Positions 12,884 through 34,792 of a stretch of 64,000 nt of DNA are shown in pieces. This DNA is from Elusimicrobia bacterium HGW-Elusimicrobia-1. Lineage in GTDB: Bacteria; Elusimicrobiota; Endomicrobiia; PHAN01. The stretch lies in the NCBI GenBank assembly GCA_002841695.1, contig PHAN01000001.1, forward strand, positions 124,001 to 188,000, given 5' to 3'. The notes beneath the pieces are model-generated. The model saw nothing but the letters and a program-made list of their open reading frames with translations, made no database searches and had not been told where the DNA came from. Positions within the stretch are counted from its first letter, which is position 1; each line of letters begins with the position of its first letter. The position numbers and the translations under genes are program-made.

Positions 12884-12925
12884 CTTGCCGCGGCGATTTG
12901 CGCGCGGCTCTCTGCGAGAGGACGA

Positions 12926-14380: not shown

Positions 14381-15405
14381 GCCGGCCTTTTTTCTCCGTG
14401 ATTATGACGGTCTATAACAGGGCCGGCCTTATGCGCTTCGCGCTCGAATCGCTTCGGCGGCAGACCTTCGGAGATTTTGAAGTATTTGTGGCCGACGACG
14501 GCTCGTCGGACAATCCCGCCGGGGTCTTTGAAAGTTTCCGGCGTCCCGGATGGAATTTCGTCAGGTTCGACGGGAATCACGGCTATCCGTATTGCAAAAA
14601 TCGTCTTCTTGACAAAGTGTCCGGCGATTATGTCACTTTTTTGGATTCCGACGATGTCTGGCTGCCTGAGCGTCTCGCGCGGTTCCGGGCTCACGCAATC
14701 GCCCTGCCCGACGACGGATTTATTTTTTCCGACTGTTTCCTCGAGCAGCACGGACAGGTGCTTGCCACAATGAGCGGCGGACGGCGCGATATTCCGCACG
14801 GACATCTTGGCGCGTGGGCCGCCGTGTCCAACCGTTGGCTGCCCTACGTGACCACAAATGTGGCGCTCAAGCGCGAGGCCGTAAAGGACGCGGGATACTA
14901 TAACGAAAAACTTGTACATCTGGCCGATACCGAATACTTCGCCCGCGTCGTAGGAAAATATCCGGTGGGATATATTCCGGAACCTTTGGCGGTATACAGG
15001 ATACACGAAATTTCTCTTACGTCAAACTGGGACTCTTGTCTGGCCGAAAATATACAGATAATCGATATGACCTCCCCGCCGCCCGACGTGGAGATACCTC
15101 TTAAAGATCACGTTCTTTACGCGCAGGCGGTCGTCTATTTTAAGAAAGGTATGGGAAGGGAGGCGCGGGAGTGCCTCGGTCAAATAAAAAATTCGCCGAT
15201 CCGCGCAAGAATTCTTTATCCTTTGACATTCGTGCCGGAAGTATTTTTGAAAATTCCGCGGTTTCTCTACAGGAAACTTCGCGTCGCCCGTCTTATGTTT
15301 ATGCCGGTCGCCAGAGAATTGAGGGACGCGGAAAATTGGCTTAACGATCTGGAGCGCGCGTCCACACCTCCGATGGAAACGGGCGCCGACAGGGGGCATT
15401 CATGA
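14377..15405 (+). CDS. GT2-family glycosyltransferase
   Basis: This 342-residue soluble GT-A enzyme starts with VIMTVYNRAGLMR and has VADDGSSD in the nucleotide-binding loop. LDSDDVW supplies the metal-binding DxD and a later region around LVHLADTEYFARV contributes the acceptor side. No transmembrane helix is obvious, although the C-terminal part is basic and could lie on the membrane. It would extend a lipid-linked oligosaccharide on the cytoplasmic face. It overlaps both neighbours by four bases. Donor and acceptor cannot be read from the sequence; the heptose kinase gene directly follows. Confidence 0.88.
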   Translation: MSRPFFSVIMTVYNRAGLMRFALESLRRQTFGDFEVFVADDGSSDNPAGVFESFRRPGWNFVRFDGNHGYPYCKNRLLDKVSGDYVTFLDSDDVWLPERLARFRAHAIALPDDGFIFSDCFLEQHGQVLATMSGGRRDIPHGHLGAWAAVSNRWLPYVTTNVALKREAVKDAGYYNEKLVHLADTEYFARVVGKYPVGYIPEPLAVYRIHEISLTSNWDSCLAENIQIIDMTSPPPDVEIPLKDHVLYAQAVVYFKKGMGREARECLGQIKNSPIRARILYPLTFVPEVFLKIPRFLYRKLRVARLMFMPVARELRDAENWLNDLERASTPPMETGADRGHS

Positions 15406-16391
15406 TTATCACAAAAACACCCCACAGAATTTCTTTTTTCGGCGGCGGCACGGATTATCCGGCGTGGTATCTTAAAAACGGCGGCAAAGTGCTCGGCGGG
15501 GCAATCAACAAGTATTGTTATCTTATAGTGCGCGAACTTCCGCCGTTTTTCGAGCACAAGCACAGAATCGTTTATTCAAAACTCGAAAACGCAAAAACCA
15601 TAGACGAGATAGCGCACCCGGCCGTCAGGGAAGTGCTCCGTTACAGAAACTATCAGTCGGGCATTTCGATACATCACGACAGCGATATTCCCGCGCGTTC
15701 CGGAATGGGGTCGAGTTCCGCTTTTACCGTCGGATTGCTTAAAGCCATGCACGCCATGGACGGAAATATGATATCCAGGGAAGACCTCTACGCCGAGGCC
15801 ATTCACGTGGAGCAGGACATAATCAAAGAGAACGTCGGTTCGCAGGATCAGGTTTTCGCGGCTTGCGGAGGACTTAACAAGATAGATTTTTTGTCCAACG
15901 GCGAAATAGTCGTTTCTCCGGTGATAATAGCTAAGGACGCCTTGCGGGAGTTTCAGAGCAAATTTATGCTGTTTTTCACGGGCATTGCCAGAAACGCGTC
16001 GGACATCGCCGAGGAGCAAATCAGAAACATAGACGCCAAGTCAAAGGACTTGCGCGAAATGTCATCTCTCGTGGATGAGGCCCACGGCGTTTTGACGTCG
16101 TCGCCGCTCGCGTTCGGTGATTTCGGACGGCTGCTCGACGAGACGTGGAAGATAAAACGGAATCTGTCGTCGAAAATAAGTAATTCGTTCATAGACGATA
16201 TTTACGCCAAAGCTCTCAAAAACGGCGCGGCGGGCGGAAAACTGCTCGGCGCCGGCGGCGGAGGATTCATGCTTTTTTACGCGGAGCCCCAAAACCACGG
16301 CCGCCTGAAGGCCGCGCTCGACGGGCTTCTTCACATACCTTTCGACTTCGATTTTACCGGAGCCGACATAATCTTCTATAAACAGGACTAA
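15402..16391 (+). CDS. hddA: GHMP kinase, HddA-like D-glycero-D-manno-heptose 7-phosphate kinase
   Basis: The 329-residue protein opens TPHRISFFGGGTDYPAWY, the characteristic HddA start. It carries the GHMP ATP-binding loop PARSGMGSSSA (97-107) and the C-terminal motif KLLGAGGGGFM. HddA phosphorylates D-glycero-D-manno-heptose 7-phosphate at C1 on the way to GDP-heptose. The matching guanylyltransferase is encoded far downstream at 41927, but no GmhA isomerase or GmhB phosphatase gene is in the window. L-fucokinase-type and other sugar kinases of the family are less likely given the N-terminal signature. Confidence 0.85.
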   Translation: MIITKTPHRISFFGGGTDYPAWYLKNGGKVLGGAINKYCYLIVRELPPFFEHKHRIVYSKLENAKTIDEIAHPAVREVLRYRNYQSGISIHHDSDIPARSGMGSSSAFTVGLLKAMHAMDGNMISREDLYAEAIHVEQDIIKENVGSQDQVFAACGGLNKIDFLSNGEIVVSPVIIAKDALREFQSKFMLFFTGIARNASDIAEEQIRNIDAKSKDLREMSSLVDEAHGVLTSSPLAFGDFGRLLDETWKIKRNLSSKISNSFIDDIYAKALKNGAAGGKLLGAGGGGFMLFYAEPQNHGRLKAALDGLLHIPFDFDFTGADIIFYKQD

Positions 16392-16396
16392 AAACC

Positions 16397-17335
16397 ATGA
16401 AACTCAACATTCTTGTGACGGGCGGCGCCGGATATATCGGTTCGATTCTGGTGCCCAAACTTCTTGCTTCGGGACATAAGGTCGCCGTGCTGGATAATTT
16501 TACGTATTTGCAGGGCGAGTCGCTGGCGGCCTGCTGTGCCGACGATAATTTTTCGGTGGCGCGTGGCGATGTCCGCGATATATCCGTCGTAAAGCCGCTA
16601 CTTAAAAAAGCCGACGTCGTAATTCCTCTGGCGGCTCTTGTCGGAGCCCCTCTGTGCGACCGCGACACGACCGCCGCCCGCACGGTGAATTTTGACGCGG
16701 TAAAACTTATCGCGGATTCGGTTTCCGCGTCGCAGCGCATAATTTATCCGACCACCAACAGCGGATACGGCATAGGCACCGACAAGTTCTGCACGGAAGA
16801 AACACCGCTTAATCCGGTTTCGCTCTACGGAGTCGTAAAGATGAATGCCGAAAAAGCGGTGTTGGCAAGGGAAAACTCCATAAGTTTCCGTCTGGCAACC
16901 GTGTTCGGAATGTCGCCGAGGATGCGGCTGGATCTTCTTGTCAACGATTTCGTCTACCGCGCGTACACCGACAGATTTGTGGTGGTATTTGAAGGACATT
17001 TCAGGCGCAACTACATACACATACGCGACGTCGCGGCGGCGTTCCTGCACGCCATTGAAAACTTTGAAAAAATGAAGGGGCAGCCATACAACGTCGGACT
17101 TTCGGAAGCGAACCTTTCAAAGTTGGAACTCTGCGCGAGCATAAAAAAACATCTGCCGGCTTTCGTGTATCTTGAATCGGCCGTCGGAGAAGACGTCGAC
17201 AAGCGCGATTACATAGTTTCCAACGAAAAAATAGAAAGGACGGGCTTTCGCCCGACGAACTCGCTCGACGACGGTATAAAAGAGCTTATCAGGGGCTACG
17301 CTATGCTCAGGAATACGAGGTACGGCAACGTATGA
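16397..17335 (+). CDS. NAD-dependent sugar epimerase/dehydratase (extended SDR)
   Basis: The 312-residue extended SDR has an intact NAD-binding motif TGGAGYIGS (8-16), a Ser/Thr region PTTNSGYG (118-125) and the catalytic pair Tyr144/Lys148 (YGVVK). GalE-like and RmlB-like enzymes share this layout. The full catalytic set separates it from the three degenerate SDR proteins further along. It probably epimerises or oxidises a nucleotide-activated sugar, perhaps the heptose made by its neighbours. The gene starts 5 bases after the heptose kinase stop and overlaps the next gene by four bases. Confidence 0.85.
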   Translation: MKLNILVTGGAGYIGSILVPKLLASGHKVAVLDNFTYLQGESLAACCADDNFSVARGDVRDISVVKPLLKKADVVIPLAALVGAPLCDRDTTAARTVNFDAVKLIADSVSASQRIIYPTTNSGYGIGTDKFCTEETPLNPVSLYGVVKMNAEKAVLARENSISFRLATVFGMSPRMRLDLLVNDFVYRAYTDRFVVVFEGHFRRNYIHIRDVAAAFLHAIENFEKMKGQPYNVGLSEANLSKLELCASIKKHLPAFVYLESAVGEDVDKRDYIVSNEKIERTGFRPTNSLDDGIKELIRGYAMLRNTRYGNV

Positions 17336-18333
17336 ACGCGAAACGCAAGTTCAAAAAAGTCCTTATCACCGGCGTCGGCGGTTCCGGCGGCAGTTACCTG
17401 GCCGATTACATAACGCAAAACCATCCGTCCGTCGAGGTTCACGGAATAGCCAGATGGCACAGCGCCCCTCCGTCGGTGAATGTCAATAAGTCCGTGTCGC
17501 CGGCCGTCGTGCACGAATGTGATCTGGCCGATTTCAGCTCGGTGTTCTCCACGTTATCGAGCGTCCGGCCCGATGCGATATTTCATCTTGCTTCGCACGC
17601 CAACGTCAGAGCGTCTTTCGTCACGCCCCTTTCCGTGCTCGACAACAACATAATGGGCACCGCCAATCTGCTTGAAGCCGCTCGGCTGGCCGGTATCGAC
17701 GCGGTCATACAGATATGCAGCACATCGGAAGTTTACGGGCAGGTCGCGCCTGAAAATGTCCCCATAAAAGAGAACTGTCCGATGAATCCGTCCAGCCCGT
17801 ACGCCGTTTCCAAAGTCGCGCAGGATTTGCTGGGCTTTACTTATTTCAGAAGTTACGGGATGAAGATAATCCGCACGCGCATGTTCGCCTACGTCAATCC
17901 CCGTCGGGCCGACTTGTTTGCCACGGCCTTCGCTCTTCAGGTGGCCGAAATCGAGGCAGGGCTCAGAGACGTTCTTTATCATGGAAATCTTGATTCCGTG
18001 CGCACTCTCATCGACGTAAGAGACGCCATGGAATCGTACTGGGTCGCCGCCGAGTCGTGCGATTTCGGCGAAGCGTATAACATCGGCGGAGACACCGTAA
18101 TTAAAGTCGGGGAATTTCTCGACCTTCTCAAAAAGGCCGCGAAAGTTCCCATAAAAACACAGGCCGATCCGTCGCTTTTCCGTCCGGCGGACGTTACTTT
18201 ACAGATACCTGACACCGGCAAGTTCGTCTCAAAAACCGGATGGCGGCCGAAGTGCTCGTTTGAGGATAGCGTAAAGTTTTTGCTCGCCGCCTGCCGCGAC
18301 GCCGTATCAAGAAAGCGTGGAGCGTCCAAATAA
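17332..18333 (+). CDS. GDP-mannose/GDP-heptose 4,6-dehydratase-like enzyme
   Basis: The 333-residue extended SDR resembles GMD. It has TGVGGSGGSYLADY (GMD has a GSYLAE-like stretch here), STSEVYG (130-136) giving the Thr-Ser-Glu part of the active site, and Tyr157/Lys161 in SPYAVSK. NPRRADLFAT matches the PRRGE(T/L)F region of GMD. The reaction would convert a GDP-sugar to its 4-keto-6-deoxy form. Because HddA and HddC-like genes share the locus, GDP-D-glycero-D-manno-heptose is a better guess than GDP-mannose, as in the DmhA-type enzymes of Campylobacter and Yersinia. Substrate choice is inference. Confidence 0.82.
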   Translation: MNAKRKFKKVLITGVGGSGGSYLADYITQNHPSVEVHGIARWHSAPPSVNVNKSVSPAVVHECDLADFSSVFSTLSSVRPDAIFHLASHANVRASFVTPLSVLDNNIMGTANLLEAARLAGIDAVIQICSTSEVYGQVAPENVPIKENCPMNPSSPYAVSKVAQDLLGFTYFRSYGMKIIRTRMFAYVNPRRADLFATAFALQVAEIEAGLRDVLYHGNLDSVRTLIDVRDAMESYWVAAESCDFGEAYNIGGDTVIKVGEFLDLLKKAAKVPIKTQADPSLFRPADVTLQIPDTGKFVSKTGWRPKCSFEDSVKFLLAACRDAVSRKRGASK

Positions 18334-19615: not shown

Positions 19616-21594
19616 AATACGCTTCAAAGTGGGATATATACGCGATTGTTCTGGTTGCCGCGACATTTGCCGTCGGTGTAGCGGGCGCGGGCTGGGGTTT
19701 GCCGTCGAGTCGCCGCGCGGAAATCACTTTGAGCGAAAATCTGAGGACACCGGCTTTTTACGCGCGTCTCGCGAAAGTCCGCGACGACATTTACGAAAAG
19801 GCCGGGCCGAATCTGCCCGCTTACGCCGGACGGCTGTTAGTGTCGGGCGGCGGCTACGACGCTTCCGTCAATTTGGCCACTCCTCCGGAAAAAGACGGCA
19901 CAATCCATCTGGTTTCAAAAGGGCGGGACATTCCGCTTGAGCTTTTGAGAGCGTACAATTCGTATCTTTTAAGAAGCGGCCATCCCGACGAGCAGGATAT
20001 GCTCACCGCCATATCCAAGATGAATCCCCGCAAGTTTAAGTTCGACCCGCATTTTTACCGCTACGGCGGAAGTTATCTCTATCCTTTGGCCGGATGGTTC
20101 GGCGTCGTAGGCGCCGCGGGTTACCTGAAAATCAATCCGGACATAACTTTCTATCACGCCTCGCCCGACGACATGGGACGTTTTTATCTGCTCGGACGAC
20201 TTTTTTCGCTGGTGTTCGGCGCGCTGCTCGTCTGGACGGCGTATCTTTTTGCGCGGGATTTTTACGGCCCCCGCGTCGGCTTCTTCGCGGCTTTGATTTT
20301 CGCTTCTTCTCCAATGCTGCTTGCGGAATCCAATACGATGAAGCCGCACATATACGCCGCCTTCTGGGCGATGTTGAGCGTTTACTGGATGCAAAAACTG
20401 CTGCGCTCCGACGATAAAAAGTATTTTTGGGCCGCAGGCGCCGCTCTTGGCATGGCCGCGGGAACAACGATAAATTCCTGGATATATCTGGCCTTTCTGC
20501 CTGCCGTAATTCTGGCGAAATATCACGCCCGCGGCGCCGCCTTCGCGGCGGCGGAAGCGGTCAAAAGATCCGCGCAGGTGTTGGCGGTATCCGCCGTGGT
20601 TTTTACGCTGACCAACCCGTACGTAATATTTTCGTTCGCGGATTATATGGATGAACTCAGATGGACGGCGAGTTTTCATCATTTCATTTTCAGGCCGTGG
20701 GTATTATTCACGGTGCCGTTCCGCGCGGCCTTTGGCGCTCCTCTGGCCGCGGCGGTTTTGGCGGCGCTCTTGTACGCGCTTGTTTATAAAAAAGAAACGG
20801 TCGACCGGCTGTTGTCGTATTTTTCCGCGGCATCACTTTTATTTTTGGCGGTTTCTTCGGGCGGACAGGGGGAAGCGTCGGCGTATATGCGTTATCATCT
20901 TCCGCTCCTGGCCGTGTTGTCCGCCGTTGCCGCCTCGGCTTTTTCCGACACACTGCGCATCCGCCCCGTCGTTGTCCGCGCCTCCGCTCTGGCGGTCATA
21001 GGCGCCGGTGTTTTGTGGGCGCAGTCGCTGAGGACTTTTCATGCGGTAAAATATATCAGAGCGTCGGGCGACGGCGCCTCCGCCCTGGCCGCCGGCCGAT
21101 GGATTAACACACACGTGCCCCCCGGCAGTTTGGTGGGGGTAATGAAGTACGCCCCTCACGTCGATTCCACTCCGCCGTTTCGTTTCGCCGACTACAAAAT
21201 AATCTCCGGGTTTGAAAGGGTCGAGAGTATAAAATCCGTCCGCGTGTTGCCGGAGTATTTTATTATGGGGAAGCCGCCGGATTTTCTTGAAATCAAGTGG
21301 AAGGATTTTTCCGAGTTTTACGACGAGACGGCCAAATTCGGCTTGAGCGGGAAAATCGGCCCGTTTGTTTTTGTCGACAAAATAACCCCCGCGGATTTTT
21401 CCGTGGCCGTATATAAATTGAGACCATTGAAAAAGTCGTCAAAATGTCACCCTGAGCGAAGCGAAGGGTCTCGCTTGTCGTCGGAAGGCGAGATTCTTCC
21501 CCCCGACAGGTCGGGGGTCAGAATGACAAATAGCGGGGTTTTTCAACGGTCTCAAATTAAGGGCAAAATCGTTTCGCGGCAAATAAATAAATGA
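19612..21594 (+). CDS. GT39/GT83-like membrane glycosyltransferase with repeat-derived C-terminus
   Basis: The 660-residue GT-C-like protein has about ten membrane helices. The first periplasmic loop contains GHPDEQDM, the Asp/Glu pair of ArnT/PMT-type enzymes that use polyprenyl-phosphate sugars. Residues after about KLR at the end are not native: they are encoded by a mobile palindromic repeat (21420-21553), recognisable by the run CHPERSEGSR. Removing the element and one copy of its AAATT duplication restores an ending VYKLRAKSFRGK with a TAA stop. Start ATG 19612 overlaps the methyltransferase stop; an upstream in-frame ATG at 19552 is unlikely. Confidence 0.85.
   Translation: MKYASKWDIYAIVLVAATFAVGVAGAGWGLPSSRRAEITLSENLRTPAFYARLAKVRDDIYEKAGPNLPAYAGRLLVSGGGYDASVNLATPPEKDGTIHLVSKGRDIPLELLRAYNSYLLRSGHPDEQDMLTAISKMNPRKFKFDPHFYRYGGSYLYPLAGWFGVVGAAGYLKINPDITFYHASPDDMGRFYLLGRLFSLVFGALLVWTAYLFARDFYGPRVGFFAALIFASSPMLLAESNTMKPHIYAAFWAMLSVYWMQKLLRSDDKKYFWAAGAALGMAAGTTINSWIYLAFLPAVILAKYHARGAAFAAAEAVKRSAQVLAVSAVVFTLTNPYVIFSFADYMDELRWTASFHHFIFRPWVLFTVPFRAAFGAPLAAAVLAALLYALVYKKETVDRLLSYFSAASLLFLAVSSGGQGEASAYMRYHLPLLAVLSAVAASAFSDTLRIRPVVVRASALAVIGAGVLWAQSLRTFHAVKYIRASGDGASALAAGRWINTHVPPGSLVGVMKYAPHVDSTPPFRFADYKIISGFERVESIKSVRVLPEYFIMGKPPDFLEIKWKDFSEFYDETAKFGLSGKIGPFVFVDKITPADFSVAVYKLRPLKKSSKCHPERSEGSRLSSEGEILPPDRSGVRMTNSGVFQRSQIKGKIVSRQINK
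21420..21553. repeat. MITE-like element 2 (CHPERSEGSR-type palindromic repeat) inside a gene end
   Basis: This 134-bp element has 15-base terminal inverted repeats GAGACCATTGAAAAA and TTTTTCAACGGTCTC, 14 of 15 complementary. It is flanked by a perfect 5-bp duplication AAATT (21415-21419 and 21554-21558). The interior is an imperfect palindrome (TGTCACCCTGA near the left, TCAGAATGACA near the right; GGGTCTCGC against GCGAGATTC). It has inserted into the 3' end of the membrane glycosyltransferase gene and changed its last residues and stop codon. Confidence 0.92.
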
Positions 21595-22469
21595 GAAAAC
21601 CCGACTACGGCATCATTCCCGACGCGGTTCGCGCGGCTTCCAAAGAACGCTCTCTGGCCATATTCAGGCGTATGTGCCTGAGCAGATATTTTGAAACCGG
21701 CATTATTGACGCGGTGGCGGATGAAACCGTTGATTACCCCGTGTATTTGTCAATGGGGCAGGAGTCGATACCGGCCGCGCTCGCCGAAGAAATCGGCGGA
21801 TTTATGATATTCGCGCAGCATCGCTGTCACGCCGCGTACCTTGCTTTCGGCGGAGATCCCGCCAAACTTCGCGACGAGCTTATGGGATTGCCCACGGGCA
21901 CCAGCGGAGGCCGCGCCGGTTCCAACTGCGTTCAGTGTCACTCCGGAGGATTGGAGATGTTCGGGCATCACGGGCTGATAGGCGAAAACGTTCCTCTGGC
22001 GGTGGGAGCGTCTCTGGGGAGTGGAAAACCGGCGGTTTGTTTTTTCGGCGACGGCGCCGCCGAAGAGGATTATGTTTTTGCCGCTATGGGATTTGCGGTA
22101 ACGCACAAATTGCCCGTGCTTTTCGTATGCGAGGACAACAATTTATCGATATTGACGGAAATCCGCGACCGGCGGTCGTGGAGTATTACCAAAGTGGCCG
22201 CCGCTCTTTATATGCCCGCCGTGGACATTGCCGACGACCCGTGGAGCGTGGCCGCCAAGGTCGCCGGGCTTAAAAAAAATCTGCCGGCCTTTATGAATAT
22301 CTATACCTGCCGCGCCCGATGGCACGTGGGCGCCGGAATAGACGGCCCGCCCGCGTGGGACAGATTCGCGCTTGTTAAAGAAGAGCTTTTGGCGCTGGGT
22401 CTGGGTAACGAAGCGGCCAAGATTGAGAACGAAGTCCGGGCGTTTATGACGGAATTATGGAAAAAATGA
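21591..22469 (+). CDS. Thiamine-diphosphate E1 alpha subunit-like protein
   Basis: The 292-residue protein belongs to the alpha subunit family of 2-oxo acid dehydrogenase E1. It binds thiamine diphosphate through GDG (153-155) and the downstream DNN (182-184), the classic GDG-x26-NN motif; the segment GDGAAEEDYVFAAMGFAV is typical. There are no E2 lipoyl acyltransferase or E3 genes nearby, so it is probably not part of a dehydrogenase complex. Related orphan E1 pairs attach two-carbon units to keto sugars in antibiotic pathways (AviB1/AviB2 type). It pairs with the following beta gene. Confidence 0.85.
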   Translation: MRKPDYGIIPDAVRAASKERSLAIFRRMCLSRYFETGIIDAVADETVDYPVYLSMGQESIPAALAEEIGGFMIFAQHRCHAAYLAFGGDPAKLRDELMGLPTGTSGGRAGSNCVQCHSGGLEMFGHHGLIGENVPLAVGASLGSGKPAVCFFGDGAAEEDYVFAAMGFAVTHKLPVLFVCEDNNLSILTEIRDRRSWSITKVAAALYMPAVDIADDPWSVAAKVAGLKKNLPAFMNIYTCRARWHVGAGIDGPPAWDRFALVKEELLALGLGNEAAKIENEVRAFMTELWKK

Positions 22470-23356
22470 CCGTAGCCGAAACTATCAAAAGAATAACCCG
22501 CCGGCACCTTGAGCAGGATAACGGAATGCTTCTGGGCGAGTGCATTACCGCCGTGGGCTGGGTCAACGGAACTGTCCCCGACGCCAAAAAAGGAATCGTC
22601 GAACTGCCCATGACCGACGTGGCCGGCGCCGGAATAGCCGTGGGCGCGGCTCTCGTCGGACGCAGGCCGATACTGGTGATCAGATTCCAGGATTTTCTTA
22701 TGCTTAATTCCAGCCCGCTGATATTTTTCGCCGCAAAGTACAAGGAACTTCACGGACGTTCCGCGCCGATTTTTGTCAGAGCCAGCGCCGCCGAGGGCTT
22801 CGGTCCGGTTCATTCCGGAGTGCTGCATTCCATCTTTATGCATTTTCCGGGATTTCGAGTTTGCTCGCCCATGACGCCTCTTGAATATGAGGATGCCTGG
22901 CGGGATTTTATGAGCCACGACGACCCTTTTATTTGCAGCGAGCACCGTTTAAGCTATTCCAACACCGGGGAAATGCCCGATATTTTCGTCGACGGCGCCC
23001 GCGTAACATTGTATCCGGTGTCTGCGGCCAGATTCGCGGCTGTTCGCGCCGCCTCGGAGCTGCAAAAACAGGGCATACCCTGCAACGTGGCGCACATAGT
23101 GCGGCTGAAACCGTTTACCGTCGACAAACGGCTGACGGCGCCTCTGGATGCGGGTTCCGCCGGTCTGGTGATAGACCCCGGTTATGAAATAGCGGGCGCC
23201 GCCAGGAGCATAGCATACGAGTTGACGCAAAAAACCGGCGCGCGGGTAAACGCGCTGGGACTTCGCGACAAGACAAAATGTCTTTGCGAGCCGCTGCGCA
23301 ACCCGGCGCCCGACGCTGAAGCCATCGTCGGGGCGGTTCATGCGATGCTCGGATAA
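22466..23356 (+). CDS. Thiamine-diphosphate E1 beta subunit-like protein
   Basis: The protein has 296 residues from ATG 22466, which forms an ATGA overlap with the alpha gene; ATG 22457 (three residues longer) is possible. The N-terminal half resembles the E1 beta pyrimidine-binding domain, with ELPMTDVAGAGIAVGAAL where PITE-x-GF-x-GIAVGAA is usual. The catalytic Glu that activates the cofactor is therefore Asp here (residue 51 in this numbering). The C-terminal transketolase-like domain is complete. Together with the alpha subunit it should catalyse carbon-carbon bond formation or cleavage on a keto sugar or acid. Confidence 0.82.
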   Translation: MTVAETIKRITRRHLEQDNGMLLGECITAVGWVNGTVPDAKKGIVELPMTDVAGAGIAVGAALVGRRPILVIRFQDFLMLNSSPLIFFAAKYKELHGRSAPIFVRASAAEGFGPVHSGVLHSIFMHFPGFRVCSPMTPLEYEDAWRDFMSHDDPFICSEHRLSYSNTGEMPDIFVDGARVTLYPVSAARFAAVRAASELQKQGIPCNVAHIVRLKPFTVDKRLTAPLDAGSAGLVIDPGYEIAGAARSIAYELTQKTGARVNALGLRDKTKCLCEPLRNPAPDAEAIVGAVHAMLG

Positions 23357-23437: not shown

Positions 23438-23947
23438 ATGAAAAAAGCCGTGATAATCACAGCGCAGAACTTTCAGGACGAGGAATTCATATACCCCTAT
23501 TATCGTCTGCGGGAGGCGGGTTTTTCCGTCGATGTGGCGATAAAGGGAAAAGAAACCGTCAAAGGCAAATACGGACTGCCCTGCAAGCCCACGGTCGACA
23601 CAAAAGACCTGCGCGAGTCCGACTACGATCTTGTGGTAATACCCGGCGGGCACGAAGCTCCCGACAGGGTAAGACAGGTCAGGGAAGTCCTGGACTTTGT
23701 GCGCGCTATGAACGCCAAGGGCAAAGTGATTTCCACCATTTGCCACGGCCCGTGGGTTTTAATTTCGGCGGGTGTGGTTAAAGGAAAAAAAATATCGGCA
23801 TACATCGGAATCAAGGACGATGTCGTCAACGCCGGCGCCGAATATGTCGACGCTCCTGTTGTCGTCGACGGCAATATCGTTTCGTCTCCGCACTATCAAT
23901 ATAACGGCGACTGGATGCGCGAGACGCTGAAAAAATTCGGACTATGA
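23438..23947 (+). CDS. DJ-1/PfpI-family protein
   Basis: This 169-residue single-domain protein has the DJ-1/PfpI nucleophile elbow STICHGPW with Cys102 and His103, an acidic residue near the N-terminus in FQDEEF (Glu15/Glu16), and IPGGHEAPD before the elbow. Members include glyoxalase III, class I amidotransferase-like proteins, proteases and hydratases; sequence alone does not say which. Placed between an E1-like pair and a sugar SDR-cupin fusion, it more likely works on a carbonyl sugar intermediate than as a protease. A GGAGG ribosome site precedes the ATG. The 81-base gap upstream shows nothing else. Confidence 0.85.
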   Translation: MKKAVIITAQNFQDEEFIYPYYRLREAGFSVDVAIKGKETVKGKYGLPCKPTVDTKDLRESDYDLVVIPGGHEAPDRVRQVREVLDFVRAMNAKGKVISTICHGPWVLISAGVVKGKKISAYIGIKDDVVNAGAEYVDAPVVVDGNIVSSPHYQYNGDWMRETLKKFGL

Positions 23948-25680
23948 ACAAGAGCGACAAAATATACGTGGCCGGACACAACGGCCTTGTCGGTTCGGCG
24001 GTATGCCGCCGTCTGGCGGCCGCCGGCTTCACCGATGTCATCACGCGTTCCCGCGCGGAACTCGACCTGTGCGACCAGAACCACGTCCGCGCGTTTTTCG
24101 ACAGAGAACGGCCGAAGTACGTATTTTTGGCCGCGGCCAAGGTCGGGGGTGTTTACGCAAACGACACCTATCGCGCCGATTTCATTTACGAAAATCTGAT
24201 GATACAAAGCAACGTAATTCATCAGGCGTTCGTGCACGAAACGTCAAAACTCCTGTTTTTCAGCTCCGCGGATATGTATCCCAAAAACTGCCCCCAGCCG
24301 GCCAAAGAGGAGTATCTTTTCGGCGGGCCGCTTGAACCGACCTGCGAGCCGTTCGCGGTGGCGAAACTCGCCGGCGCCCAAATGTGCGAGTCGTACAACC
24401 GTCAATACGGAACGGATTTTACGGTGGCGATCGCCCCCAATGTCTATGGACCGCATCAACGCTACGACTCTCTTAACGCGCAGGTGGTTCCCTCTCTGTT
24501 AAAGAAATTCTACGAGGCGAAAGCGTCCTCCTCGGACGAAGTTGTCATTTGGGGCGCCGGCGGCGCTCAGAGAGATTTTCTGTATTCCGACGATCTGGCC
24601 GACGCGGCGATATTTATTATGAAGGAAAGCGGCGCTCCTGATTTTTTTAATGTAGGCACGGGAAGCGGTTATACCATTGCCCAAGTGGCCGAGGCGATAA
24701 AAAAAGCCGTGGGATACGGCGGCAGAATTGTTTTTGACAAAACCAAGCCGGAAGGGGCGGTCAGGAAACTTTTGGATGTATCAAAGATTACGGATCTCGG
24801 ATGGAAAGCCGGCGCTTCGCTGGAAGCCGGCCTTGCGGCGACTTACGATTCTTTCGTCGGGGAAATGAGCAGAAAAGAAGCCCGCGTCAGCATAGTGTGC
24901 AATATTTCCCTTAACCGAAAAGATTCGCAGGCGCTTAAAAAAATCCAAAAGGGGCGCGGGATTCCGTCGTCGGAAGCCGTTGAACAGGATTTCAGGAACA
25001 AGATAGTCATAAAGCCGTGGGGCCACGAATTTCTGGTTTTTGAAAACGAGGAGACATCGGTATGGTTTCTGCATCTTAAAAAAGGGCATTCCACGTCGAT
25101 GCACTGCCATCCCGGCAAAAACACATCGCTGATAATTCTTTCCGGTAAAGCCATGAGCAGCACTTTTGAGTCGAGAAATTACCTCAAAGGCGGCGACGCC
25201 ATAATAATAGAGAAAGGCGTATTCCACTTTACCAAAGTTCTTTCGGACGACGGATTGTGTATGTTTGAGATAGAATCTCCGCCGCTCAAGACCGACCTTG
25301 TGCGTCTTGAAGACCGCTACGGACGGGCCGAATTGGGATACGAGAGCGAGGCCGCTTCGTCGCCGGAGCGTCTTAGGGAATACGGTTATTTTCATTTTGA
25401 AGATACGCCGCCGCAAAAACGTTTCGCCCATGCCGACGACAGATTTACCGCCGAGTTTGAAGTATTTGCCGATGCGAAAGATTTTCAGGACCATTTCAAG
25501 ATAGACGACCTCGGCTGTCTCTACACTTCCTGCCGCGGCAATATTGTCGGCGCCGACGGCAAGACGCTTTTGGCGTCCGGCGGAACCCAGAAGGCCGACG
25601 TTCTTTTTAACGCGGGAAATATGAGCGTTACGGGGCGCACTGTAATTCTTAAGACCTCCACACGGGACAGACAACTGTGA
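23944..25680 (+). CDS. GDP-L-fucose synthase-like SDR fused to a cupin domain
   Basis: The protein has 578 residues. Residues 1-305 align closely with GDP-fucose synthase (GHNGLVGSAV, SSADMYPK, CESYNRQYG, APNVYGPH). The catalytic Tyr is Phe137 (FAVAK, Lys141 kept), the epimerisation Cys is Ala109 and the epimerisation His is Gln180. A linker (about 305-350) leads to a mannose-6-phosphate-isomerase-like cupin (about 352-475) with IKPWGHE and the metal-binding MHCH, and then a further 100-residue beta-rich tail. The SDR half is unlikely to act as a normal epimerase-reductase; the cupin could isomerise or epimerise. It overlaps both neighbours by four bases. Confidence 0.85.
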   Translation: MNKSDKIYVAGHNGLVGSAVCRRLAAAGFTDVITRSRAELDLCDQNHVRAFFDRERPKYVFLAAAKVGGVYANDTYRADFIYENLMIQSNVIHQAFVHETSKLLFFSSADMYPKNCPQPAKEEYLFGGPLEPTCEPFAVAKLAGAQMCESYNRQYGTDFTVAIAPNVYGPHQRYDSLNAQVVPSLLKKFYEAKASSSDEVVIWGAGGAQRDFLYSDDLADAAIFIMKESGAPDFFNVGTGSGYTIAQVAEAIKKAVGYGGRIVFDKTKPEGAVRKLLDVSKITDLGWKAGASLEAGLAATYDSFVGEMSRKEARVSIVCNISLNRKDSQALKKIQKGRGIPSSEAVEQDFRNKIVIKPWGHEFLVFENEETSVWFLHLKKGHSTSMHCHPGKNTSLIILSGKAMSSTFESRNYLKGGDAIIIEKGVFHFTKVLSDDGLCMFEIESPPLKTDLVRLEDRYGRAELGYESEAASSPERLREYGYFHFEDTPPQKRFAHADDRFTAEFEVFADAKDFQDHFKIDDLGCLYTSCRGNIVGADGKTLLASGGTQKADVLFNAGNMSVTGRTVILKTSTRDRQL

Positions 25681-27245
25681 AAAAAACCGCGCCCGCGCCG
25701 GCGGAAAATTACGCTTTTATAATGTCGCCGTCGGACAATGTCGCCGTAGCCGGAAAGGATATTCCGGCGGGGACGGCTATGTCCTTCGGCTCCCGATGTT
25801 TTTCCGCGCGGCGCCGCGTTCCGTCGGGCGCGGTATTCGCGCTGTCCGACATCGGCCGCCGCGAAGCCGTTACGCAGTACGGGTACCCGTTCGGCGTGTC
25901 GTCGGGCATAAAGGCCGGCGAAGTAGTTGCCGCCGGCGACGTCCTGTCGTCGGACGCGGACATCAAAAAGGAAGCCGCGCGAGCCATCGGCGCTTTGGCG
26001 GGCCGACGTCATAAAACTGCGCCGCGGGCGGCAAGGCCGTCGCCGCTTTCGTTTGAAGGTTACAAGAGGCCCGGCGGCGCGGCGGGCACAAGAAACTACT
26101 ATCTGGTGATTCCCGCGTCTATGTGCGCGGCCGACGTCGCATCCAGAATAGCGCTCGCCGCCGACGAAAGGACATCGGGCGCGGCGCGCCTCGACGGTGT
26201 TGTCGCAGCCGCTCACACCGAGGGCTGCGGCTCAAGCGACGGAATCATCATAGAGCGGCTGCTATCCACGCTTAAAAATACGGCGCTTCACCCGAATGTG
26301 GGCGGCGTTCTGATAGTGGAGCTTGGCTGCGAAAAAACGAACTTCAAGGATTATCGCGGTTTCTGGCGGTCGCTTATCGGTCACGGAAAACCCGTGGATT
26401 TTTTAAGCGTGCAGCGACTCGGCGGAACTTCGGGGGCCGTCGCGGCGGGATTAAAGATCGTCCGCAAACGTGTCGGACATATCTCGGCGGCGCGCAGGAC
26501 ACAATTGCCGCTTTCGTATCTGGTCGCGGGAACCGAATGCGGCGCGTCTGACGCTTTTTCGGGCGTGACGGCCAACCCGCTCATAGGCAAGGCCGTCGAC
26601 GGGATAATAAGTCGCGGCGGTTCGGCTATTCTATCTGAAACGCCGGAGATGATAGGAGCGGAAAAATATCTTATGAGCCGTATGGCTTCCGCCGCCGTAG
26701 TGCGCAAGTTCGTCGGCGGAATGGAATATTACACTTCGCTGGCGCGGAAACTGGGCGTGTCGCTTTCGGGAAATTTTGTGCCGGGCAATATAGCCGGCGG
26801 GCTGATAAATCCGTCGGTGAAAAGTTTGGGAGCGGTGCAAAAAGGCGGATCGTCGACGGTGCGCGATTGCCTTGATTACGCGGAGCGCATAAAGAAAAAA
26901 GGTCTCAATATTATGACCGGTCCGGGAAACGATCTCGAATCGCTCACCGGTATGGCGGCTTCCGGCGCCAACATTTTCCTTTTTTCGACGGGGATGGGAG
27001 CCACGGAGGGACATATAACCGTTCCGTCGATAAGAATTACTTCCCGCACCGAGGTCTTCCGGAACCTTCGCGGCGATATGGATTTCGACGCGGGACGTCT
27101 TGCCGGCGGAAAAATATCGCCGGACGCGCTGGCCGCGGAGTTGTTGGATATGACTATATCCGTGGCTTCGGGCAAAAAAACGCGTTCAGAGCTGCTGAAA
27201 AAAAGAAGCTTTCAAATCTGGAGCGCCGGCAAACTGTCTCTTTAA
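25677..27245 (+). CDS. UxaA-family altronate/galactarate dehydratase-like protein
   Basis: The 522-residue protein has a SAF domain (about 10-95, containing YPFGVSSGIKAGEVV) followed by a UxaA-type catalytic domain (about 128-510). The domain is marked by HTEGCGSSDG (180-189), VELGCEKTN (215-222) and late GAN-IFLFSTGMGA, and its cysteines may hold a metal or iron. Family members dehydrate sugar acids to 2-keto-3-deoxy acids in catabolism. Finding one between nucleotide-sugar genes is unusual; it may make a keto-deoxy-sugar acid precursor for the neighbouring thiamine enzyme, which is an inference. Confidence 0.85.
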   Translation: MKKTAPAPAENYAFIMSPSDNVAVAGKDIPAGTAMSFGSRCFSARRRVPSGAVFALSDIGRREAVTQYGYPFGVSSGIKAGEVVAAGDVLSSDADIKKEAARAIGALAGRRHKTAPRAARPSPLSFEGYKRPGGAAGTRNYYLVIPASMCAADVASRIALAADERTSGAARLDGVVAAAHTEGCGSSDGIIIERLLSTLKNTALHPNVGGVLIVELGCEKTNFKDYRGFWRSLIGHGKPVDFLSVQRLGGTSGAVAAGLKIVRKRVGHISAARRTQLPLSYLVAGTECGASDAFSGVTANPLIGKAVDGIISRGGSAILSETPEMIGAEKYLMSRMASAAVVRKFVGGMEYYTSLARKLGVSLSGNFVPGNIAGGLINPSVKSLGAVQKGGSSTVRDCLDYAERIKKKGLNIMTGPGNDLESLTGMAASGANIFLFSTGMGATEGHITVPSIRITSRTEVFRNLRGDMDFDAGRLAGGKISPDALAAELLDMTISVASGKKTRSELLKKRSFQIWSAGKLSL

Positions 27246-27250
27246 AAGTT

Positions 27251-27402
27251 GTGTCAATTGAAAAACCATCTTTTCCCCCGTATGTCATTCCCGAATGTTT
27301 TTATCCCCGATAAAGACATTCGGGGACGAATCCACACTACGACGGAAACTCTGGATTCCCGCTTTCGCGGGAATGACGTGATAAGGGTTTTTCAATTGAC
27401 TC
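27251..27402. repeat. MITE-like element 3 (GTCATTCCCG-type palindromic repeat)
   Basis: This 152-bp element has ends GTGTCAATTGAAAAACC and GGTTTTTCAATTGACTC, 16 of 17 complementary. A perfect 5-bp duplication AAGTT flanks it (27246-27250 and 27403-27407). The inner palindrome has arms GTCATTCCCG (27284-27293) and CGGGAATGAC (27368-27377). It fills the gap between the UxaA-like gene and the HAD gene and ends only five bases before the HAD start codon. An in-frame upstream extension of the HAD gene through this element (from 27249) would encode only repeat-derived residues. Confidence 0.92.
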
Positions 27403-27407
27403 AAGTT

Positions 27408-28088
27408 ATGAAGACGATACAAAAAAGATACGACGCGGTTCTTTTCGATTTCGACGGAGTTATAGGGCGCACCATGTCGGATAATTACAGGGCGTGGAAG
27501 GGCGCTATGGCGTCGCGCGGCATACGGCTGGGAAGAACCGAATATCTGCTTTTGGAAGGAATGAGCGTTCGCGCGATTGCGGAGCATTTTCTTAAACTTC
27601 ACCGCTCGGCCTTATCCGGCATCGACGGTCTGGCGCGTCTTAAAGAAAAACTTTATGCTTTGTCGGGTAAAAATATATCGATGTATCCCGGCGCTTTGCG
27701 GCTCGCCGGCGAGATTAAAAAGTCCGGCTATAAGCTCGGACTTGTCACGGGCGGCGGCGCGACCCGGATAGCGCGCGCTCTCGGAAAAAACGCGGCGCTC
27801 TTCGGCGCGATAGTAACCGCCGACGATGTCAAAAAGTGCAAACCGCATCCGGATCCTTATCTGGCAGCCGCCAAAATACTTTCGGTAAAACCATCGCGGT
27901 GTATCGCCGTGGAAAACGCTCCGCTGGGCATAGAGTCCGCGAAGCGTGCCGGAATGTTTTGCGTGGCGGTGACTTCGACTCTTGCCGGACGGTATTTGTC
28001 GGGCGCCGACGCTCTCATAGACGACGTGCGAAAACTCCGGCATATACTATCCGGCCCGAACGAATTTAAAAAAGGAAAACAAACATGA
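27408..28088 (+). CDS. HAD-superfamily phosphatase/phosphoglucomutase-like protein
   Basis: The 226-residue HAD hydrolase of the beta-phosphoglucomutase/Gph type has motif I VLFDFDGVIG with Asp14 and Asp16, motif II VTGGGA, motif III Lys145 in KCKPHPDPYL, and motif IV AVENAPLGIESAKRAG. It lacks the zinc-binding Cys loop of GmhB. It could still dephosphorylate heptose 1,7-bisphosphate, a step for which no dedicated gene is seen, or another sugar phosphate. The start ATG 27408 has no clear ribosome site, since the repeat element ends just before it. It is coupled to the next gene by ATGA. Confidence 0.85.
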   Translation: MKTIQKRYDAVLFDFDGVIGRTMSDNYRAWKGAMASRGIRLGRTEYLLLEGMSVRAIAEHFLKLHRSALSGIDGLARLKEKLYALSGKNISMYPGALRLAGEIKKSGYKLGLVTGGGATRIARALGKNAALFGAIVTADDVKKCKPHPDPYLAAAKILSVKPSRCIAVENAPLGIESAKRAGMFCVAVTSTLAGRYLSGADALIDDVRKLRHILSGPNEFKKGKQT

Positions 28089-29062
28089 ATCTCGACGGCA
28101 AGAAAATTTTCGTGGCGGGCGCGACCGGCTCCGTCGGTTCGGCCGTAATCCGCCATATTCTGGATACTTTTCCGTCGGCCGTCGTGCGCGCGTCTTGCAG
28201 AAAGACCGAGCCGTTTATAAAAGACGACCGTGTGGAATACACGCCCGCCGACCTCAGGGTTCTCGACGACTGCCGACGCGCCGCCTCCGGCTGCGATTGC
28301 GCCGTTATGGCCGCCTCCCACTCGGGCGGCTCCAAAGTTATGAGCAGCACGCCGCAGGATTTCGTCGAGGATAACACGGTTATGAACACCATGCTGTTCG
28401 AGGCGTTTTTCAGGGAGGGTGTCAAACGCGCGGTCTACATAGGCACGGCTACCGTCTATCAGGAGTCCGAAGGTTACATAAGCGAGGAGCAACTCGATAT
28501 GAACACGGATCCGCACCCGTCGCATTTCGGCGTGGCGTGGGTTTCCAGATTTATCGAGAAACTCGGTCTGTTCTGGCATCGCCGGTCGGGAATCGAAGTA
28601 ATAAATATCCGCGCGGCAAATATCTTCGGGCCGTATTCGAGTTTTAATCCGGAATCGTCGTATTTTATTCCGGCCATAATAAGAAAAGCCGCCTCAAAAA
28701 TGGACCCTTTCGAGGTGTGGGGCTCTCCGGACGTTACAAGAGACGTAATATACTCGGCGGATTTTGCCGGCGCCGTGACCGAGCTTCTTAAAAAAGACGA
28801 TATCAAGTTCGATGTGTTTAACGTCGGTTCGGGCGTTAAAACTACCGTCGGAGACGTAGTAAATTTCGCCCTGAAGCACACCGGCCATAAACCGTCAAAA
28901 ATACACTACGATACGGGCAAACCTTCGGTCACCAAGTTCAGAGCGCTGGATATTTCCAAAATCAGCCGAATGACGTCCTGGCGTCCGGCGTTCAGTGTGG
29001 AAGAAGGGATCAAAAACACCGCCGCGTGGTGGGCGGACAACAAGGATTCGTGGACAAAATGA
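28085..29062 (+). CDS. Extended SDR-like protein lacking the YxxxK catalytic pair (sister 1)
   Basis: The 325-residue epimerase-like protein has an intact NAD-binding motif AGATGSVGS (11-19) and the usual C-terminal substrate region (DVIYSADFAGAV, then VGSGVKTTVGDVV). The active-site TATVYQ is present, but the position of YxxxK reads HFGVAW, with Phe148 in place of Tyr and Trp152 in place of Lys. This should abolish classical SDR chemistry. The next gene shares the change, so it is inherited rather than a sequencing error. Roles could be a binding, scaffolding or non-redox function on a nucleotide sugar. Confidence 0.8.
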   Translation: MNLDGKKIFVAGATGSVGSAVIRHILDTFPSAVVRASCRKTEPFIKDDRVEYTPADLRVLDDCRRAASGCDCAVMAASHSGGSKVMSSTPQDFVEDNTVMNTMLFEAFFREGVKRAVYIGTATVYQESEGYISEEQLDMNTDPHPSHFGVAWVSRFIEKLGLFWHRRSGIEVINIRAANIFGPYSSFNPESSYFIPAIIRKAASKMDPFEVWGSPDVTRDVIYSADFAGAVTELLKKDDIKFDVFNVGSGVKTTVGDVVNFALKHTGHKPSKIHYDTGKPSVTKFRALDISKISRMTSWRPAFSVEEGIKNTAAWWADNKDSWTK

Positions 29063-30018
29063 AAAAAAAGATTCTTGTTTGCGGCGCTTCCGGATTCATA
29101 GGAAGAAACGTCGCCGAGTATTTTGCGTCCCTCGGCGACAAATACGAAGTGCGGGGCACATATTTGAAATCTCCACCACCCGACGACTCCCGCATAGAAA
29201 AAGTGAAAGCCGACCTGACCGATAAAAACGACGTCGCCCGCGTTATGGACGGCGTCGACATAGTGATACAGGCGGCCGCCACGACGTCGGGAGCCAAAGA
29301 TATCGTCGGTAAACCGTATTATCATGTCACGGACAACACGGTTATGAACGCGCTGATATTCCGCGAGGTGTTCGAGCGCAAAATCCCGCGAGTGGTTTTC
29401 TTCAGCTGCACCGTAATGTATCATTCGAGCGACACGCCGCTCAAGGAAACGGATTACGACCCTTCGCGGCCGATTTATCCCGCTTATTTCGGCGGGGCGT
29501 GGATGAAACTTTACAATGAAAAGATGTGCGAGTTTTACGCGGGCATAAGCGATACGCGCTACACCGTAATAAGACATTCTAATATTTACGGGCCCCACGA
29601 TAAGTACGATTTGGATCGTTCGCACGTTTTCGGCGCCACGGTGACCAAAGTAATGGCCGCGCCCGACGGCGGGAACATTGCGGTGTGGGGCGACGGTTCC
29701 GAAGCCCGCGACCTTCTCTACGTTTCGGACATCGTTTCGTTCGTGGAAGCCGCGCTGGAAAAACAGGAATCGAAATTCGAGATTTTCAACGCCGGCGGCT
29801 CGAAAGCCGTCAGCGTTAAAGAGATTGTTTCTGAAATCATCGCTCATTCGGGAAAGAAAATCGGCGTTACGCACGATTTGAGCAAGCCCGCCATAAAAAC
29901 GAATCTGTGCCTCGACACATCGAAGGCGCGCGGTATGCTGGGATGGCATCCCAAAGTTTCTCTCGACGAAGGCATTAAAAAAACTCTGGCATGGCACAAA
30001 AAAAAGTTCGGAAAATGA
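29059..30018 (+). CDS. Extended SDR-like protein lacking the YxxxK catalytic pair (sister 2)
   Basis: The 319-residue protein is a homologue of the preceding gene. The NAD motif CGASGFIGRN (8-17) is intact, SCTVMYHS occupies the Ser/Thr site, and YFGGAW replaces YxxxK (Phe144 and Trp148 align with Phe148 and Trp152 of the sister). Both also share NTVMN at about 93-102 and a late (T/S)-(S/A)-x-W-(R/H)-P followed by EGIKxT. ATG 29059 overlaps the preceding stop; an upstream in-frame ATG at 29026 is less likely. The pair may form a heterodimer. Confidence 0.8.
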   Translation: MKKKILVCGASGFIGRNVAEYFASLGDKYEVRGTYLKSPPPDDSRIEKVKADLTDKNDVARVMDGVDIVIQAAATTSGAKDIVGKPYYHVTDNTVMNALIFREVFERKIPRVVFFSCTVMYHSSDTPLKETDYDPSRPIYPAYFGGAWMKLYNEKMCEFYAGISDTRYTVIRHSNIYGPHDKYDLDRSHVFGATVTKVMAAPDGGNIAVWGDGSEARDLLYVSDIVSFVEAALEKQESKFEIFNAGGSKAVSVKEIVSEIIAHSGKKIGVTHDLSKPAIKTNLCLDTSKARGMLGWHPKVSLDEGIKKTLAWHKKKFGK

Positions 30019-30653
30019 CTATCGCAAAACTTTCAAACAGGCGTATAAAACGCGCGGGGCGCAAGCCGCCGCCGGCCGGCGCCGCGTGGAAAATTCTTTC
30101 GGAAAAAAAGCTTTTTGAAACGCCCGATGCCCGCGTATCGGTCTTTGTGCAGAAAGTCCGCCTGCCCGACGGAAGGGTCGTGGACGATTATTATCAGGTA
30201 AAGTTTCCCGAAGCCGCCGTGATAGTGGCGCGCACCAAAGCCGGCAAAATTATTTTTTTAAAGCAGTACTTGCACGGTTTCAGACAAAGCGGGACCGTGC
30301 TTCCGGCCGGACAGGTTGCGCCGGGAGAGCCGCCCCGTCGGGCGGCCGAGCGTGAATTAATGGAAGAGACGGGTTACACGTCCCGACGCTGGACGTCGAT
30401 GGGAAGCATAGTCCCGCACACCAACCAGGGCTGCGGAAGGGTTTATTTTTTCTTCGCCGACGGCGCGGAGCCCGTCGCGCGTCCCTGTTCGGGCGATCTG
30501 GAAGTTGCGCAGGTGATATTTATGCGTCCTGACGAAATTCTTGCCGCGCTTCGCGGAGGCCGCGCGAAAATGTCCATGGGAACCATAACCGCGCTGGTTC
30601 TTGCCGGCGCGCTCGGCGGAACAGTTTCAAAGAAAGGCCGGAATATATGCTGA
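30015..30653 (+). CDS. Nudix hydrolase, nucleotide-sugar pyrophosphatase-like
   Basis: The 212-residue protein has a complete Nudix box, G-x5-E-x7-REL-x-EETGY, at about residues 104-126 (starting GQVAPGE). The preceding fold (VFVQKVRLPDG, VIVARTKAGKIIFLKQY) resembles ADP-ribose/ADP-sugar pyrophosphatases and GDP-mannose hydrolases. It would cleave a nucleotide sugar or diphosphate sugar, either as housekeeping or to return a processed sugar to the phosphate form. ATG 30015 is chosen for its ATGA overlap; an ATG at 29991 would overlap the upstream gene by 28 bases. Confidence 0.85.
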   Translation: MTIAKLSNRRIKRAGRKPPPAGAAWKILSEKKLFETPDARVSVFVQKVRLPDGRVVDDYYQVKFPEAAVIVARTKAGKIIFLKQYLHGFRQSGTVLPAGQVAPGEPPRRAAERELMEETGYTSRRWTSMGSIVPHTNQGCGRVYFFFADGAEPVARPCSGDLEVAQVIFMRPDEILAALRGGRAKMSMGTITALVLAGALGGTVSKKGRNIC

Positions 30654-31972
30654 AAATAGGATTTATATTTCCCAGCAGCGATTATCTGCACGACCCTTTT
30701 CGCGGCGACCCGCACACTCATTTTCAGATTCTTACGGTTTTACAGAAGGAACTGGGGTCGTCGGTAAAAGCATCTCTGATAGACCTTCGGGGCATAGATA
30801 AAAAGTTCGCGCTGTATCATATACCCGAATGCGATATTTATCTTCATTCGGTTTACACGCTTGATTTCCGGGAGCAAAAAAGCATTGTCTCCGCGCTGCG
30901 CGGCCGGTATCCGTCGGCCAAACATATCGCCGGCGGACCTCACGCGGCGGTCTTTCAGGAAGAGTGTCTTAAAATATTCGATTCGCTCATAATCGGGGAC
31001 GGCGAAGATACGGTCGTGAAAGCGGCGCGGGACGTAATGTCGTCGACGCTGAAGAAAAAATATGCGCAGGAAATCCCCGTGGACATTAATCTTTATCCGT
31101 ACCCGAAGAGACATTTCCTTCCGGAGTCGGCGGTGGCAAGGAAGGGTCTGCTTACGCTTAAAGACGACCGTTCGCTCGATGAACTGTTAACGACGACCGT
31201 TATATTCAGCCGCGGTTGTCCGTATAACTGTTATTTTTGCGCCATGCCCGCGCTGAAAAAATACAGCCCCGGCATAAGGTTCAAAAAACCCGAACTTGTG
31301 GCCGAAGAAATCGAATATCTTAAGAGGGAGTACGCAATAGGCGGTATCAGTTTGCTCGACGAACTTTCGTTTCCGACCGCGCCCGGCAAGGCATTGCCCT
31401 ATATCGAAGCCATAGGCCGCACGGGTATAAAATGGAAAGCCCAGTGCCGCGTCGACGGAGTAACGCCCGAAATCGCCCGCGCCTTGCGCGCCGCGGGATG
31501 CGTTATAATGTGTCTGGGCATAGAAAGCGTGTGGCAGGATTCTCTCGACAGAATAAACAAAAAAATAAACATAAAAAAAACAATGGAGTCCATACGCCTG
31601 CTCAAAGAAAACGGAATCGAGACCAGGGTTTATATGATAATGGGGCTTCCGGGCGAGCCCGATGATATTGTGGATCGCACGTGGAATTTCATCAAAGAAA
31701 CTTCGCCGGATCTGGTGTATATGTGTCTTTTGACGGTACGGCCCGGCACAAGGATGTACGAAAACCCGTCGGAGTTCGGATTTAAGTGCGTAACCACCGA
31801 CTGGGACAGGACAATGCATCTGTTCGGAAGATACGAGGACGAAAAACCCACACTGACGTTTGAATACGACGAAACTACACCATGGGGCAAAGGCATGAGC
31901 GCCGAAAAAATCACGGCGAATTATGTTGAGCTGCAGAGACGTCTGGTTGAAGCCGGCCTTGCGCGAAGATAG
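30647..31972 (+). CDS. B12-binding-domain radical SAM enzyme (2 of 6)
   Basis: The 441-residue protein has an N-terminal cobalamin-type Rossmann domain (IAGGPHAAVF at 95-104) and radical SAM cysteines C191-x3-C195-x2-C198 in SRGCPYNCYFCAM. A SAM-binding GIES motif (LGIESVWQDSLDRI) and the late MIMGLPGE strand complete the barrel. It is the first of four consecutive radical SAM genes (30647-36736). Possible roles are C-methylation or radical rearrangement of a sugar; reductase-type radical SAM chemistry is also possible. The start overlaps the Nudix gene by seven bases. Confidence 0.87.
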   Translation: MLKIGFIFPSSDYLHDPFRGDPHTHFQILTVLQKELGSSVKASLIDLRGIDKKFALYHIPECDIYLHSVYTLDFREQKSIVSALRGRYPSAKHIAGGPHAAVFQEECLKIFDSLIIGDGEDTVVKAARDVMSSTLKKKYAQEIPVDINLYPYPKRHFLPESAVARKGLLTLKDDRSLDELLTTTVIFSRGCPYNCYFCAMPALKKYSPGIRFKKPELVAEEIEYLKREYAIGGISLLDELSFPTAPGKALPYIEAIGRTGIKWKAQCRVDGVTPEIARALRAAGCVIMCLGIESVWQDSLDRINKKINIKKTMESIRLLKENGIETRVYMIMGLPGEPDDIVDRTWNFIKETSPDLVYMCLLTVRPGTRMYENPSEFGFKCVTTDWDRTMHLFGRYEDEKPTLTFEYDETTPWGKGMSAEKITANYVELQRRLVEAGLARR

Positions 31973-32007
31973 ACGACAGACGGCTATCCGCCGGTAAATA
32001 TAAATTA

Positions 32008-34790: not shown

Positions 34791-34792
34791 TT

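Follow-up and report, generated by a model that had tools for sequence, protein, structure and literature searches.

The window, the whole 64,000-nucleotide stretch of Elusimicrobia DNA analysed here, carries at 23944-25680 (+) one intact open reading frame with an ATG start, encoding a protein of 578 amino acids in which an SDR domain is fused to a cupin. A GDP-fucose-synthase-like domain joined to a cupin had been proposed in the original prediction, and both the frame and the domain profiles confirm it. Residues 1-308 (23944..24867, +) form an extended SDR domain of the GDP-L-fucose synthase (GFS/Fcl) type with an altered active site, as judged from profiles, alignment and AlphaFold2. The Pfam profile Epimerase (PF01370) scores 196 bits on the fusion protein, and the NCBIfam model GDPFucSynFcl covers residues 4-308 with 395 bits, below its equivalog cut-off of 500. 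The best phmmer match of the SDR domain is E. coli Fcl (1bsv, E=1.2e-96). After the SDR domain comes a linker (24868..24996, +); in a Nitrospirae locus, L016, two neighbouring genes encode the SDR and the cupin. The linker is followed by a first cupin barrel of the PMI/Cupin_2 type (24997..25329, +; residues ~352-462) with the type-II-PMI-like pattern KPWGxE...TSxHxHPxK...FHxT...DLVRLxDxYGR. The NCBIfam model GMP_PMI matches residues 327-461 weakly, under its cut-off. The C-terminal region (25330..25677, +) is, according to a cupin-only model, a probable degenerate second cupin barrel.

Genes on both sides are closely packed. An E1-alpha-type ThDP subunit with a GDG...NN motif (21591..22469, +; profiles) overlaps the gene of an E1-beta-type ThDP subunit (22457..23356, +; profiles and homologues), and a DJ-1/PfpI protein with an ICHGP nucleophile elbow (23438..23947, +) overlaps the start of the fusion by four bases. 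The end of the fusion overlaps, again by four bases, an altronate/galactarate dehydratase-like gene of the UxaA type (25677..27245, +). Together, these overlaps suggest that the PfpI, fusion, UxaA-like and E1 genes form a single transcription unit. A HAD phosphatase of the beta-PGM type lies at 27249..28088 (+); its homologues align only from near 27420, the probable true start. The window also encodes a Gmd-type 4,6-dehydratase-like SDR with T-S-E and YxxxK motifs (17332..18333, +; profiles), a GHMP sugar kinase whose nearest model, below cut-off, is the heptose-7-phosphate kinase HddA (15402..16391, +), RfbH-like aminotransferases and an HddC-like nucleotidyltransferase. Both GDP-mannose and GDP-heptose could serve as precursors, since the genome additionally encodes a GMP-PMI scoring above cut-off and a SIS-type protein resembling phosphoheptose isomerase.

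Several further features surround this cassette. Two Fcl-like SDRs follow it (28085-29062 and 29026-30018), both without YxxxK and with the motif [YF]FG..W instead; the same neighbours occur in L012 and L106-L108, relatives described below, so altered active sites are conserved there too. The region adjoining the cassette (30647-36736) encodes several radical-SAM proteins, the majority of which have a B12-binding domain, and orthologues of some of them follow it in the same relatives. The same glycan cluster includes a split transketolase whose N and C halves are encoded by two genes next to each other (38930-40716). In L108 the Gmd-like SDR orthologue (11620-13722, -) carries an in-frame insert of ~366 amino acids at the STSEVYG active-site motif. 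The insert is intein-like, with a Cys start, a CGN end before Ser and LAGLIDADG, and matches Pfam Intein_splicing below cut-off (E=3.7e-6).

The active site of the SDR domain was compared with 1bsv using a phmmer alignment which has no gaps from residue 5 to past 200 and covers the active site. Because the alignment is gap-free, a register shift bringing back Tyr, Cys or His is ruled out. Ser107-Ser108-Cys109 of the E. coli enzyme correspond to Ser108-Ala109-Asp110 (24265..24273, +), Tyr136...Lys140 to Phe137...Lys141 (24352..24366, +) and His179 to Gln180 (24481..24483, +). The domain is like E. coli Fcl/GMER in fold, length, glycine motif, the triad Ser and Lys and the CESYNRQYG region, but differs in Cys109->Asp, Tyr136->Phe, His179->Gln, the attached cupin and the profile score given above. 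In place of the Ser-Tyr-Lys reductase triad of GDP-L-fucose synthase, which is absent from this domain, stand Ser108, Phe137 and Lys141; the Cys109/His179 epimerisation pair is likewise absent, with Asp110/Gln180 instead. The original prediction had correctly read Ser and Lys as kept, Phe137 and Gln180 as replacements, both epimerisation residues as lost, and the fold motifs and CESYNRQYG region as well preserved; the GDP/NADP-binding framework is kept. Its Ala109 in the place of Cys was off by one, as Ala109 replaces Ser108 and Cys109 aligns with Asp110. On sequence grounds, loss of the Cys/His pair argues against epimerisation of the GFS type by this domain.

A search for other proteins with this domain order, suggested with the original prediction, yielded fused copies in two rounds. 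Besides the split locus L016, a genome scan gave four full-length fused relatives, one from Elusimicrobia at 59% identity (L012) and three from Deltaproteobacteria at 54-56% (L013-L015), two of which carry a Myxococcota label from the tree tool; a phylum search added five more (L106-L110). With the split L016, the SDR domains of 10 fused proteins and one separate protein, from Elusimicrobiota, Deltaproteobacteria/Myxococcota and Nitrospirota, form a single clade of 11 members (support 100/98) that adjoins ordinary GFS. The position of Cys109 is Asp in 10 of 11 (Ser in L016), that of His179 is Gln in 10 of 11 (Leu in L016), and that of Tyr136 is Phe in all except the fused L108, which has Tyr. 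Ser107 is kept in 8/11 and is Cys in L016, L109 and L110, and all 11 members share Lys140, the glycine motif, Trp202 and Arg209. Ordinary GFS homologues in the active-site alignment keep Cys, Tyr, Lys and His throughout, as do intact Fcl paralogues inside some fusion-bearing clusters, with the exception of the paralogue in L107. Recurrence of Asp, Phe and Gln in independent relatives, against Cys-Tyr-Lys-His in ordinary GFS, therefore makes the replacements more than chance. A decayed pseudogene is ruled out by the intact frame and by identical replacements across phyla. The clade represents a natural experiment in which the active site of GDP-fucose synthase was changed while the fold and the cofactor Lys were retained.

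The cupin is the more widely conserved partner of the fusion, and is found without this SDR in L111-L113, L133-L137 and L104. An alignment of 19 cupins has common motifs of the types KPWGxE, TSxHxH, FHxT and DLVRLxDxYGR, and three histidines (H64/H66/H105 in A4 numbering, H387/H389/H428 of the fusion) are invariant in it. The predicted metal site consists of His387-Cys388-His389 (25102..25110, +) and His428 (25225-25227, +), and Thr394 (25123-25125, +) replaces the Glu of PMI. The Gln, His, Glu and His of the PMI site Q-x-H-x4-E...H, which we take to be its metal ligands, correspond to H-x-H-x4-T...H in the fusion cupin, so that His and Thr stand in for two of the ligands, Gln and Glu. The type II PMI site is not found here; nearly the whole cupin family has His-x-His...Thr...His, although the Thr varies (Ala in L112, Val-side variation in L104). 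Viral PMI-like cupins retain Q-x-H-x4-E...H, as does the true GMP-PMI encoded elsewhere in this genome; phage and viral matches were rejected as family members on this PMI-like site. The cupin resembles the type II PMI domain at the C-terminus of GMP-PMI (PF01050/TIGR01479) in its KPWG start, its D(L/I)VRxxDxYGR end and weak profile matches, but differs in the His and Thr at ligand positions, the extra C-terminal region and the missing guanylyltransferase domain. An MPI-like cupin with a metal site in MHCH had been predicted: the two histidines stand, as part of an invariant predicted triad, but with two of four PMI ligands replaced plain PMI function is rejected. No match to an RmlC-type dTDP-sugar isomerase profile was obtained for the fusion cupin in Pfam or NCBIfam, and a PDB profile search with the cupin gave weak cupin matches only.

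Structure prediction, also suggested at the outset, gave a good model of the SDR but no confident domain arrangement. In the full-length AlphaFold2 model the SDR is mostly above pLDDT 90 and the cupin below 50, because most alignment rows cover the SDR only, and the cupin is not confidently placed against the SDR. The cupin-only model is better (pLDDT 80.6). As it can be aligned over its full length with cupins of two barrels (quercetin dioxygenase, oxalate decarboxylase), at low TM-scores, the ~115 amino acids after the first barrel are probably a degenerate second barrel. The first barrel superposes at about 2.3 A on the cysteine dioxygenase YubC of B. subtilis (3eqe/4qm9), which presumably also has a 3-His metal site, but the identity is 19% and the gene context implies no thiol substrate.

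The gene context of the cupin was compared over 20 cupin loci. A ThDP carboligase is encoded beside the cupin or fused to it in 18 of them, comprising orthologues of E1-alpha/beta with at least 53% identity in 14 loci and an acetolactate-synthase-like (ALS-like) ThDP enzyme in 4, where it is fused to the cupin in three (L111, L112, L133). A PfpI gene is present in 18/20, and many of the loci also have a linked UxaA-like gene. The sequence of L109 is truncated next to PfpI. As a control, 54 ordinary-GFS loci, each 11 kb or longer, were taken mostly from Bacteroidota and Lachnospiraceae, unmatched in phylum make-up to the cupin loci; E1-alpha, E1-beta, ALS-like ThDP, PfpI, HAD, UxaA and this cupin were absent from all of them. 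In the window, the carboligase is encoded together with NDP-keto-sugar-forming enzymes, i.e. E1-alpha/beta with the Gmd-type dehydratase and an RfbH-like aminotransferase. The original interpretation is partly supported, and had missed this association as the main context. The plasmid NZ_CP060593.1 of Rouxiella badensis holds two copies (L104, L132) of a group of cupin, PfpI, HAD-like, DJ-1 and polysaccharide-deacetylase genes, one of them partly broken; no ThDP gene was seen near either, including L104 with cupin, PfpI and HAD-like genes together.

ThDP enzymes which install carbon branches on keto-sugars are known from lipopolysaccharide (YerE and ErwE, PMC12247030) and, as E1-alpha/beta-type enzymes, from antibiotic sugars (PMC4753412). 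YerE-like and E1-alpha/beta-type enzymes (alphaKADH2, AviB1/AviB2) are likewise found in sugar clusters with keto-sugar-forming enzymes, and both types occur next to the cupin family of the fusion. The portions of these two articles available to us make no mention of a cupin, PfpI or altered GFS in branched-sugar pathways, and a literature search for this gene combination found nothing.

We propose, with a probability of roughly 40%, that the fusion is part of a conserved surface-glycan cassette making a ThDP-branched sugar, in which the SDR domain holds a GDP-keto-sugar and the cupin transfers a proton. The sequence and its fold family, the conserved residues, the associated genes and the fusions of the cupin are observed; from these we infer substrate, reaction and step order, and GDP is assumed from family membership. 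The Gmd-type dehydratase would form a GDP-4-keto sugar; using a 2-oxo acid that may come from the UxaA-like dehydratase, the E1-alpha/beta ThDP enzyme would attach an acyl carbon branch to this sugar. The fusion protein would then process the keto intermediate. Its SDR domain, having lost GFS-type C3/C5 epimerisation, would bind the GDP-keto-sugar on the kept dinucleotide/GDP-sugar framework and may have retained a C4 reductase activity like that of C. jejuni MlghC, and the 3-His metal cupin would carry out proton transfer, as epimerisation or alpha-hydroxyketone tautomerisation. Three points speak against this reading: the cupin copy on the Rouxiella plasmid, with no ThDP gene near it, may serve another reaction with PfpI; the cupin and E1 could act on the 2-oxo-acid donor instead of the GDP-sugar; and the full-length model does not confidently place the cupin relative to the SDR.

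According to PMC7949155, MlghC is a GFS relative that is active as a GDP-heptose C4 reductase. It carries Ser107, Phe136 and Lys140, a Tyr/Arg pair replaces Cys/His, and its step follows that of MlghB, a cupin epimerase that is a protein of its own. The MlghC residues (7anc/7anh) are taken from that article and not from our own alignment; Asp at position 110 is absent among the residues discussed in the part of it available to us. As far as described there, MlghC and DdahC are like the fusion SDR in being GFS relatives without the Cys/His pair that work after a cupin epimerase, but they have Tyr/Arg or Thr/His in place of Asp/Gln, their partner is a separate RmlC-type protein, and the pathway includes no ThDP enzyme. 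The fusion has the MlghC-type combination of kept Ser and Lys, Tyr->Phe and no Cys/His pair, with Asp and not Tyr at position 109. Since MlghC with Phe136 is active, Phe137 does not show that the SDR is dead, and the Tyr in L108 likewise speaks against taking Phe137 as proof of inactivity. The "repurposed binding domain" first proposed is upheld in the loss of the epimerisation pair and the kept GDP/NADP framework, but a binding-only role is not established.

The SDR could accordingly be an ordinary, working C4 reductase like MlghC and the cupin its C3/C5 epimerase, the C. jejuni heptose pair in fused form. MlghC itself, reducing GDP-4-keto sugars after its cupin epimerase, the HddA-like kinase and HddC-like nucleotidyltransferase in the window, the phosphoheptose-isomerase-type gene in the genome and the Tyr of L108 all favour this. 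We nevertheless find it rather unlikely, as the cupin has PMI-like motifs and is not of the RmlC type, Ser107 is Cys in three of 11 relatives, and the closest ties of the cupin are to ThDP enzymes and not to reductases.

If the SDR were instead a non-catalytic pseudoenzyme for oligomerisation or docking, all catalysis would fall to the cupin and the ThDP partner. Variation of both the triad Tyr and Ser within the clade, the cupins lacking this SDR and the two neighbouring SDRs without YxxxK fit such a role, which we judge unlikely given that the invariant Lys140, glycine motif, Trp202 and Arg209 are unexpected in a pure scaffold. The fusion protein could also process the ThDP donor: PfpI, UxaA-like and HAD enzymes would produce a 2-oxo-3-deoxy acid or a comparable donor for the cupin to isomerise, and the SDR would only recruit the acceptor. 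Consistent with this improbable alternative are the linked UxaA-like genes, the long hydroxy-2-oxo acids that ErwE takes as donors (PMC12247030) and the Rouxiella plasmid, where PfpI, HAD and cupin genes are grouped with no ThDP gene nearby. A misread ordinary fusion of GDP-fucose synthase and mannose-6-phosphate isomerase, for which matches to GDPFucSynFcl and GMP_PMI can be cited, has almost nothing left in its favour, as both matches are below cut-off, neither the epimerase pair nor the Gln and Glu ligands of PMI are present, and a true GMP-PMI is encoded elsewhere in the genome.

Returning to the ThDP-branched sugar, we tentatively regard the 3-His cupin as an undescribed family which may be a dedicated partner of ThDP carboligases, tailoring a GDP-keto-sugar after branch attachment. 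ThDP sugar-branching carboligases are known, and an accessory enzyme of this cupin kind is unmentioned in the available parts of PMC12247030 and PMC4753412. If the proposal is true, a cupin fused to ALS-like carboligases or to a repurposed GDP-fucose synthase would represent a new GDP-keto-sugar tailoring route. The fusions mark the cupin as a likely functional partner, and new branched sugars can be sought with this testable set of genes, which spans several phyla.
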